Source: Hippea alviniae EP5-r (lineage in GTDB: Bacteria > Campylobacterota_A > Desulfurellia > Desulfurellales > Hippeaceae). From it: a stretch of DNA of 64,000 nt. Each line of letters begins with the position of its first letter. Within the stretch, counting starts at the first letter, position 1. Below the pieces are notes generated by a model that worked only from the letters and a program-made list of their open reading frames with translations, was not told where the DNA came from and ran no database searches. Shown in pieces: positions 39,787 to 41,540 of the stretch. The stretch lies in assembly GCF_000420385.1 (NCBI RefSeq), contig NZ_ATUV01000001.1, forward strand, positions 1,054,001-1,118,000, in the 5' to 3' direction. The position numbers and the translations under genes are program-made.

Positions 39787-39996
39787 ATGAAAAAAGGCAT
39801 TCATCCAAAGTATGAGCTTACAACAATAAGATGTGCATGTGGTAATGAGATAGTTACAAGGTCAACAGTTCCAAATCTCACCGTTCAGGTATGTTCAAAA
39901 TGTCATCCATACTTCACAGGCAAACAGAAGATAGTTGATGAGACTGGAAGAGTTGAGAAATTCAACAGAAAATACAGAAAAAACACGACAAACTAA
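39787..39996 (+). CDS. rpmE: 50S ribosomal protein L31 (zinc-binding type)
   Basis: The 69-residue protein begins [20 protein letters not shown] and has the C+ pattern: RCAC and CSKCH, which bind one zinc. The start is ATG 39787 after GGAGAGGTG; an in-frame extension to 39742 has no ribosome-binding site and is not part of the family. L31 bridges the subunits. It is followed by an unknown gene 28 bases downstream. Confidence 0.97.
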
Positions 39997-40024: not shown

Positions 40025-40297
40025 ATGGATGGCAAGAGCGATACCTTCAACATCGATAAAGAGTTAGATTTAAGAAGCCAAGATGAACAGACAATAACAG
40101 AGAGAGTTCAGAAAGCTCTGGAGTCTGTGAAAAAGGGCAACTTCATGCTTGTTTATGTAAACAGATATGAAGATATATCTGTTGTAGCAAAGGCGGCATT
40201 TGCAGTAAAAGCCACCGTTGACAATGTGCTTAAGAAAAATGAGAATGATTGGGTGGTAATGGTAAAAAATGAAGTGCCCGTAGCTCAAGCTGGATAG
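40025..40297 (+). CDS. Small protein of unknown function whose 3' end lies in a tRNA gene
   Basis: A 90-residue soluble protein with a strong GGAGGT site eight bases before ATG 40025, so it is very likely translated. It is acidic at the N-terminus and then alternates helix (TITERVQKALESV) and strand (FMLVYVNRY). I considered an RNA polymerase omega-like origin but the conserved residues do not fit. Its last eight codons and stop (40274-40297) overlap the acceptor and D-arm of tRNA-Arg, so its C-terminus is constrained by the tRNA. Function unknown. Confidence 0.75.
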   Translation: MDGKSDTFNIDKELDLRSQDEQTITERVQKALESVKKGNFMLVYVNRYEDISVVAKAAFAVKATVDNVLKKNENDWVVMVKNEVPVAQAG

Positions 40298-40351
40298 AGC
40301 GTAAGACTCCGGATCTTAAGGTTGGGGGTTCAAATCCCCCCGGGTACGCCA
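40274..40351 (+). tRNA. tRNA-Arg (anticodon CCG)
   Basis: A 78-base cloverleaf with encoded CCA. The acceptor GTGCCCG pairs with CGGGTAC. The D-stem is GCTC/GAGC, the anticodon stem TAAGA/TCTTA with loop CTCCGGA (anticodon CCG, codon CGG), a five-base variable loop, and the T-arm GGGGG-TTCAAAT-CCCCC. A20 in the D-loop agrees with arginine identity. The 3' A of CCA is also the first base of the next ORF's ATG. Confidence 0.97.
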
Positions 40352-40656
40352 TGTTAAGAAGCGTAGGCCAAATTATAAAAGAAGACCTAATAAAAAACGA
40401 GGCGTTTGAGAAGATTTATGTTTCTGAGCTTGTTTTCGAAGCTTTAAAGCATGTTTTGGGTGAGGGTCTATCGTCTCAGATTAAAATAAAAGGGTTTAAA
40501 GATAAGACAGTATGGATAGGAACGCCAAACTCTGTTTTCTCTCAAGAATTATCATTCTTTGAAGGCGAAATAGTAAAAAGGGTGAATGAACTTATCGGTG
40601 AAGATGTTTTAAAAAGGGTTAGGTTCGAAGAGTCATGGAAGAGAAAGAGAAGATAG
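40351..40656 (+). CDS. dciA: DUF721/DciA-like protein
   Basis: The 101-residue protein matches DUF721: an N-terminal helical segment with IYVSELVFEALKHVLGE, then VWIGTPNSVFSQELSFFEGEIV and the closing strand VKRVRFEESWK. DciA loads the replicative helicase DnaB in bacteria without DnaC; that role is known for the family but not shown here. The ATG shares its A with the tRNA CCA end, and the only upstream G-rich site lies in the tRNA T-arm. No alternative start is visible downstream. It may need an unprocessed transcript to be translated. Confidence 0.78.
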   Translation: MLRSVGQIIKEDLIKNEAFEKIYVSELVFEALKHVLGEGLSSQIKIKGFKDKTVWIGTPNSVFSQELSFFEGEIVKRVNELIGEDVLKRVRFEESWKRKRR

Positions 40657-40757
40657 AAGAGACAAAAGAAGAAGAGACAAAAAAGATATCAGAAAAAACC
40701 TGGGAAGACGACGATTGGGAAGACGACCCAAGCGGTATCTCACCGGGTTGTGGTTAA
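40635..40757 (+). CDS. Tiny acidic ORF (40 residues) ending in a Gly-Cys-Gly tail
   Basis: Too short for most gene finders. ATG 40635 lies inside the end of the DciA-like gene and runs to TAA 40755. The peptide is very rich in Glu, Lys and Asp (MEEKEKIEETKEEET), then has WEDDDWEDDPSG and ends SPGCG. Only a weak purine-rich site (GAAGAG) precedes it. The 22-base overlap, the 33-base gap to bamD and the biased composition suggest a real small protein, possibly a metal-binding or partner tail. It could also be chance in purine-rich DNA. Confidence 0.5.
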   Translation: MEEKEKIEETKEEETKKISEKTWEDDDWEDDPSGISPGCG

Positions 40758-40790: not shown

Positions 40791-41540
40791 GTGAAAAAGT
40801 CAATTTTCGTTATAGGGTGTGGTGTGGCTTTTTTCCTTGCTGGATGCTCATCGCACAAGAAAATCATACCACACGAAGAAGAAAAACCAGCCTATGAGTG
40901 GTACAATGAAGGAGTCCAAGATTACATAAACCACGATTATCAGGAAGCAGAGCATGCACTTACAATGATAAATGCCCAGCACCCAGGCAGTATCTATGCA
41001 AAAAGAGCTACACTTATTCTTGGTGATGTTTATTTCGCTAAAGGCGATTATATGCTTGCACGAGATTATTACAGAAAATTCTTAAAACTCTATCCAAACA
41101 GCAAAGATGTTGTGTATGCAAAATACAGAATAGCTCTAAGCTATTACAAAGAGAGAAATGGTTATAAATGCGATGCAACACCCGTTAGAGAAGCGATAAG
41201 GGAGTTTTTAGAGTTCTTAAATGAATATCCAAACAATCCATACAAAGATAAAGTTTACTATTATCTTACAAAAAGCGTTGAAGAATTATATCAACACGAG
41301 TTATTTGTGGCAAAATTTTATGCTGATTTAGATGAGTTTAAAGCCGCAGAAAATAGACTAAATTACATGTATAAACACTTTAAAAACATAAAATTCAACG
41401 ATGAGATGCTTTACTATCTCTCAAAAGTCTATTATGCCTTGGGCAGGAAAAAAGAAGCTTATGAATTCTTTAAAGAACTAAAAAACAGATTCCCAAATAG
41501 CAAATACACAGAAGAGCTAAGAAAACTATTCCATGAGTAA
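40791..41540 (+). CDS. bamD: Outer-membrane assembly lipoprotein BamD
   Basis: The 249-residue lipoprotein has a GTG start with AAAGGAG upstream, a signal ending in the lipobox LAGC (Cys19), and about five TPR repeats beginning WYNEGVQDYINHDYQEAE and continuing DYYRKFLKLYPNSKD. BamD is part of the BAM complex together with BamA, which is encoded 5 kb downstream. It opens the envelope run in front of hsp20 and lon. Confidence 0.93.
   Translation: MKKSIFVIGCGVAFFLAGCSSHKKIIPHEEEKPAYEWYNEGVQDYINHDYQEAEHALTMINAQHPGSIYAKRATLILGDVYFAKGDYMLARDYYRKFLKLYPNSKDVVYAKYRIALSYYKERNGYKCDATPVREAIREFLEFLNEYPNNPYKDKVYYYLTKSVEELYQHELFVAKFYADLDEFKAAENRLNYMYKHFKNIKFNDEMLYYLSKVYYALGRKKEAYEFFKELKNRFPNSKYTEELRKLFHE

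Follow-up and report, generated by a model that had tools for sequence, protein, structure and literature searches.

How can a tRNA gene share bases with the protein genes on both of its sides, and what does this mean for an RNA that carries all three? The question is raised by the tRNA-Arg(CCG) gene of Hippea alviniae EP5-r, located within the window, the whole stretch of 64,000 nucleotides that we analysed and to whose first base all positions refer unless stated otherwise. The locus comprises the following features:

39787-39996, + strand: rpmE for ribosomal protein L31, opening the conserved cluster and preceded by a good Shine-Dalgarno site (Pfam PF01197, E 3.9e-32; NCBIfam TIGR00105; syntenic in the relatives of families f1 and f2)
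40025-40297, + strand: ORF90, a small protein of TusA/YeeD/HP1264 (NuoE-like) fold with a strong Shine-Dalgarno site (GGAGG), assigned by conservation, AlphaFold2 model and Foldseek
40218-40246, + strand: sigma-70-like match TTGACA-17-GAGAAT inside ORF90, probably no real promoter (not conserved in relatives)
40274-40351, + strand: tRNA-Arg(CCG) with encoded CCA (ARAGORN; Rfam RF00005, 63.7 bits)
40295-40297, + strand: TAG stop of ORF90, nucleotides 22-24 of the tRNA, in the D loop (from the sequence; same site in 9/9 Hippea)
40342-40345, + strand: weak Shine-Dalgarno-like GGGU in the 3' strand of the acceptor stem, paired in the folded tRNA (duplex energy -3.8 kcal/mol to the anti-Shine-Dalgarno; accessibility calculation)
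40351-40353, + strand: ATG start of dciA, its A being A76 of the tRNA CCA (from the sequence; 9/9 Hippea)
40351-40656, + strand: dciA-like gene, 101 amino acids, replicative helicase loader family (PF05258, E 2.7e-10, over the cut-off)
40635-40757, + strand: acidic ORF of 40 amino acids from the ORF list, overlapping the end of dciA by 22 nt and preceding bamD, of uncertain reality
40791-41540, + strand: bamD for an outer-membrane assembly lipoprotein, the conserved downstream neighbour (TIGR03302, 183.7 bits; syntenic)

A preliminary description of the locus had let a frame of 90 residues end in the D-arm of the tRNA and a DciA-like gene open on the last A of its CCA, and both statements hold to the base. 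A codon boundary of ORF90 falls at nucleotide 1 of the tRNA, and codons 84-90 (GTG CCC GTA GCT CAA GCT GGA) as well as the stop following them lie inside it. The T-arm had been named as the sole G-rich site before dciA, which needs correction, as the GGGU in the acceptor stem stands only 5 nt from the ATG; the G run of the T-arm is with about 22 nt too far away for a normal Shine-Dalgarno site. A separate start of dciA after 40351 had been named as an argument against the proposed reading, yet no full-length one is found, the next in-frame start being TTG at 40456, which would cost about a third of DciA. Over 191 nt we found no special RNA structure beyond the tRNA itself (MFE z-score -0.77, no other Rfam match), and our literature search on the overlap in Hippea or on DciA with a tRNA gave nothing relevant.

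In order to judge the overlap, both frames have to be real genes. The dciA product matches PF05258 (DciA) over residues 7-92 with 40.7 bits against a cut-off of 24, helicase loading being a prediction, and the gene is present in one copy in each of 25 clade genomes. ORF90 occurs in 22 of them. Within Hippea the median pN/pS is 0.40 for dciA and 0.15 for the 83 tRNA-free codons of ORF90, the synonymous sites being nearly saturated. For ORF90 an AlphaFold2 model, calculated from the single sequence and confident for one of five models (the best, pLDDT 84.5), predicts a TusA/YeeD-type fold with the last strand at residues 76-82 and disorder at residues 87-90. Foldseek retrieved YeeE-YeeD (8j4c, E 3.8e-6, TMq 0.74), TusA (3lvj, TMt 0.77) and HP1264 (2lxr) with this model, and as modelled ORF90 would possess the two-layer alpha/beta fold of TusA/YeeD-like proteins. 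The catalytic Cys-Pro motif that follows the first strand in TusA is absent, ORF90 having no cysteine at all and the alignment of its family no Cys-Pro motif. The HP1264/NuoE-like family PF16514 matches ORF90 just under its cut-off of 25 (23.2 bits, E 8.6e-5) and 11 of 18 ORF90 members at E <= 0.01, while the ORF90 profile matches 2lxr at E 0.0032. That one of the flanking ORFs is spurious or starts elsewhere, as the weak Shine-Dalgarno site of dciA and the score of ORF90 below the Pfam cut-off might indicate, is hardly credible, since both have homologues throughout the clade and low pN/pS and no other start gives a full DciA domain. For the acidic ORF before bamD no family was found.

The relatives carrying homologues are Hippea and other Desulfurellales; a phylum-wide search returned the same 25 genomes as the class-wide one. 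Loss of the ORFs in relatives with the same tRNA had been set beforehand as a check, and the reading came through it, as the relatives keep the arrangement. Both overlaps are found at identical positions in all nine Hippea genomes, and in each of the 19 genomes having the ORF and the tRNA adjacent the ORF ends inside the tRNA, although frames and tails differ (VPVAQAG, SARSSVG, VSVAQKDRA and RL). A conserved tRNA-encoded tail peptide is ruled out by this variation between lineages. With tails that vary and a stop that never leaves the tRNA (19/19 genomes), the peptide is not the point of the arrangement. In the other seven genomes of Hippea's family the stop also lies inside the tRNA and the ATG of dciA follows 3-5 nt past the CCA. 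One of them (G009) has a D loop shorter by one base, leading to a TAA stop at nucleotides 28-30 and the tail VSVAQKDRA, and another (G012) uses a different frame relative to the tRNA, giving SARSSVG. The ATG on A76 is limited to Hippea, other genera starting dciA 3-9 nt after the tRNA.

Three further families each show a different state of the locus. In f4 the ORF90-type stop is formed by U8-A9-G10 of the tRNA and dciA is found elsewhere. The ORF90-tRNA pair of f4 is located downstream of recR and not of rpmE, the pair having been kept while its surroundings changed (L020, L021, L101). In f3 the ORF is missing, the tRNA is closely preceded by an element TTGACT-17-CATAGT, and dciA begins about 9 nt after the CCA, which places the tRNA in the dciA leader. 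The tRNA-Arg(CCG) of one f3 genome (G021) seems to be without encoded CCA; two sister genomes have it. Desulfurella (f2) keeps the order rpmE...bamD and has lost the tRNA, with the ORF90 stop and the dciA ATG 3-5 nt apart and no evident Shine-Dalgarno site. The tRNA-Arg(CCG) was not detected in the complete genome of Desulfurella acetivorans, in which 150 of 188 tRNA candidates were scored and tRNA-Arg(TCG) is present. The synteny rpmE-ORF90-(tRNA)-dciA-bamD among relatives favours the operon reading given below. Parsimony suggests as the simplest history an ancestral row ORF-tRNA-dciA from which f2, f3 and f4 each lost or moved one member, and Hippea alone would then have dropped a few bases, fusing CCA with ATG. 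Judged by sequence comparison, the double overlap at tRNA-Arg(CCG) is beyond chance, with both proteins conserved and under purifying selection and the arrangement identical in 9/9 Hippea.

The same comparison bears on the idea of pure packing without consequence, according to which the tRNA and dciA each have an unseen promoter of their own and the shared bases never meet in one molecule. It could draw on the match TTGACA-17-GAGAAT, which in the window precedes the tRNA by 28-56 nt, and on the promoter-like element before the tRNA in f3. A conserved promoter inside ORF90 was rejected, as the match at 40218-40246 is seen in the genome of the window and in none of the other eight Hippea. Even with this match the tRNA and dciA would share one RNA, and downstream of the tRNA there is no room for a promoter, so that we regard this explanation as very unlikely.

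How unusual are such overlaps? In this genome 46 tRNAs were read; an upstream frame of at least 60 amino acids runs into three of them and ends there, and tRNA-Arg(CCG) is the sole double overlap, with the ATG of a long frame on A76. Neither such an ATG nor a double overlap was found in a comparison set of 190 tRNAs, which was drawn from nine genomes of other families in the same domain only and is non-random, with a bias to high-scoring tRNAs. In this set five frames of 100 or more amino acids terminate within a tRNA, and at least two of these frames are real genes, namely a GHMP kinase (ispE-like) ending in tRNA-Gln (L170, G045) and a tadA-like deaminase ending in tRNA-Ser(CGA) (L215, G034). 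This tadA-like gene lies directly after tRNA-Arg(ACG), the tRNA on which TadA normally acts. A second conserved case in the Hippea genome is an ORF of 310 amino acids without Pfam family that ends at U8-A9-G10 of tRNA-Pro(GGG) (L057:567-1511, outside the window). Across the order the stop lies inside tRNA-Pro(GGG) in 16 of 18 loci read, 13 times at nucleotides 8-10 and in the three Desulfurella loci at nucleotides 21-23; the latter have a G as nucleotide 9 of the tRNA and no longer the earlier stop. In two relatives (G012 and G010) this overlap has been lost. Thus a stop inside a tRNA is uncommon without being exceptional, and it is the double overlap that is rare.

The tRNA itself appears to be in low demand. 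Among the arginine codons CGG is used least (12 of 19,408 codons across the long ORFs of the window), and since tRNA-Arg(TCG) is present and can also read CGG, little tRNA-Arg(CCG) is needed. Both Hippea and Desulfurella possess tRNA-Arg(GCG) and tRNA-Arg(TCG), and no tRNA-Arg(ACG) was found among the tRNAs read in them, so that they may lack inosine decoding of CGN. A feedback based on CGG was discarded, as rpmE, ORF90, dciA and bamD are free of this codon.

These data also concern a dedicated switch, building on the competition suggested in the preliminary description, in which controlled tRNA processing sets the output of DciA and ORF90 and ties replication to the state of translation. The exact double overlap in 9/9 Hippea despite saturated synonymous divergence would fit such a switch, as would its likeness to the model proposed for tRNA-Sec in selB (PMC8124441). 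However, the 3' overlap is confined to Hippea, Desulfurella lost the tRNA and f4 separates dciA from it, a feedback loop could not be closed without any CGG codon in the four genes, and the similar arrangement at tRNA-Pro(GGG), which concerns an unrelated gene, has disappeared on two occasions. A dedicated switch is therefore quite unlikely.

We favour, with a probability of roughly 0.6, a low-demand tRNA embedded in a conserved protein operon rpmE-ORF90-tRNA-Arg(CCG)-dciA-bamD, in which message and tRNA would be alternative fates of the transcript. All genes from rpmE to dciA would be read from one upstream transcript, co-transcription being suggested by their spacing. Ribosomes crossing ORF90 before the tRNA folds would terminate in the D loop, and a terminating ribosome would hold the 5' strand of the acceptor stem, thereby exposing the start region of dciA, which could then be translated by coupling. 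In line with this, the 7 nt at positions -10 to -4 of dciA are calculated to be fully paired in the nine Hippea when the acceptor stem is formed and 0.15-0.51 unpaired when blocking of nucleotides 1-39 mimics a ribosome that stands on the stop of ORF90; this result is suggestive only and partly given by construction, because blocking removes the pairing partner. The tight, Shine-Dalgarno-poor spacing in Desulfurella is likewise consistent with translational coupling of ORF90 and dciA. If the tRNA folds first, RNase P would cut exactly after codon 83. As the predicted fold is complete with residue 82 and codon 84 is the first one in the tRNA, the cut would come one codon past the folded domain and leave a nonstop ORF90 message still encoding the whole fold. 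Maturation of the 3' end to CCA would remove the A of the dciA ATG and usually spoil this start.

Since one cut would yield a nonstop ORF90 and the other a broken dciA start, each transcript would become either message or tRNA, and one RNA could probably not fully serve as both. Such a trade-off would be tolerable with CGG as the rarest arginine codon and a tRNA-Arg(TCG) that can also read it. Against this reading, the dciA ATG is located beyond the CCA outside Hippea, where 3' maturation need not destroy it. Of the earlier statement on cutting out the tRNA, the structural part stands, as exact removal takes the ORF90 stop and the first base of the dciA start; competition as a function goes beyond what the sequence comparison shows. 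Most likely the overlaps arose by compaction, using stop triplets at consensus positions of the tRNA (U8-A9-G10 or the UAG of the D loop), and not as a dedicated switch.

A stronger version would let the level of the helicase loader be set by translation of ORF90 through the tRNA: ribosomes finishing ORF90 inside the tRNA would keep it unfolded, blocking RNase P and opening the dciA start, and otherwise the tRNA would mature and both messages would be cut. The coupling would have been retained as ORF-tRNA-dciA, tRNA-dciA and ORF-tRNA pairs. We put this forward as a tentative proposal that is probably wrong in this form.

The 3' end allows for another possibility, tRNA punctuation. A cut before or within CCA, either after the discriminator or between the two Cs, would release a nearly leaderless dciA message (1-2 nt plus AUG) and the CCA would be rebuilt by a nucleotidyltransferase, so that one transcript gives both products without competition on the 3' side. 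Proteins of the nucleotidyltransferase family are present (PF01743), wherever the tRNA and dciA are paired the ATG is within 0-9 nt of the end of the tRNA, and there is no good Shine-Dalgarno site for dciA in the window. RNase Z usually spares an encoded CCA in bacteria that have it, which counts against punctuation. In our search RNase PH was not found and RNase Z gave a weak match only, neither being a clear 3' enzyme here, a point that counts against the preferred reading. Cuts between the two Cs of an encoded CCA have been mapped in Propionibacterium acnes and Streptomyces coelicolor (PMC3848588, PMC4681348), but such internal cuts are known from actinobacteria only, and a strong system of leaderless translation is undocumented in this lineage. 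Punctuation thus seems rather unlikely, and we return to the low-demand tRNA within a protein operon as the preferred reading.

The locus offers a clean natural case of one RNA stretch being a tRNA and parts of two messages, and the relatives provide natural variants with frame-shifted tails, shifted starts, a lost tRNA, a lost ORF or a moved dciA. With this it makes the competition between translation and RNase P on nascent bacterial RNA testable. It also illustrates that consensus positions of tRNAs can serve neighbouring genes as ready-made stop codons, and it is relevant to annotation pipelines, which may discard genes overlapping tRNAs.

Among known systems, tRNA-Sec (selC) is nested in or partly overlaps selB in Alpha- and Gammaproteobacteria, for which a nonstop upstream and a leaderless downstream message have been offered as a hypothesis (Mukai 2021, PMC8124441). 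There too the tRNA overlaps the end of the upstream ORF, with the stop inside the tRNA in Dyella/Luteibacter, and in many alphaproteobacterial cases the start of the next ORF overlaps the selB stop just past the tRNA (PMC8124441). As in selB-selC, the tRNA overlaps a real conserved ORF in all 19 linked genomes; unlike a tRNA lying wholly inside one ORF, it is left by ORF90 at nucleotides 22-24. While selC is a special tRNA placed together with the elongation factor dedicated to it, the tRNA-Arg here is an ordinary one standing between two proteins that have nothing to do with it, and the start codon uses the A of CCA itself. Mitochondrial tRNA punctuation and gene overlaps, for example in Armadillidium vulgare as cited in PMC8124441, share the row gene-tRNA-gene without spacers, in which excision of the tRNA sets the message ends. 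In mitochondria this is a general rule with leaderless translation and stops completed by poly(A), whereas here we have a single bacterial locus whose neighbours have Shine-Dalgarno sites. The tRNA-Pro(GGG), tRNA-Gln and tRNA-Ser cases likewise take the stop from tRNA positions 8-10 or the D loop, but in no such case does A76 of that tRNA also open an ATG. Compared to selB-selC, new here are the ordinary tRNA, the two unrelated proteins, the overlap at both ends and the clade-wide keeping of parts of the arrangement, while the mechanism has already been proposed and is hypothetical in both systems.
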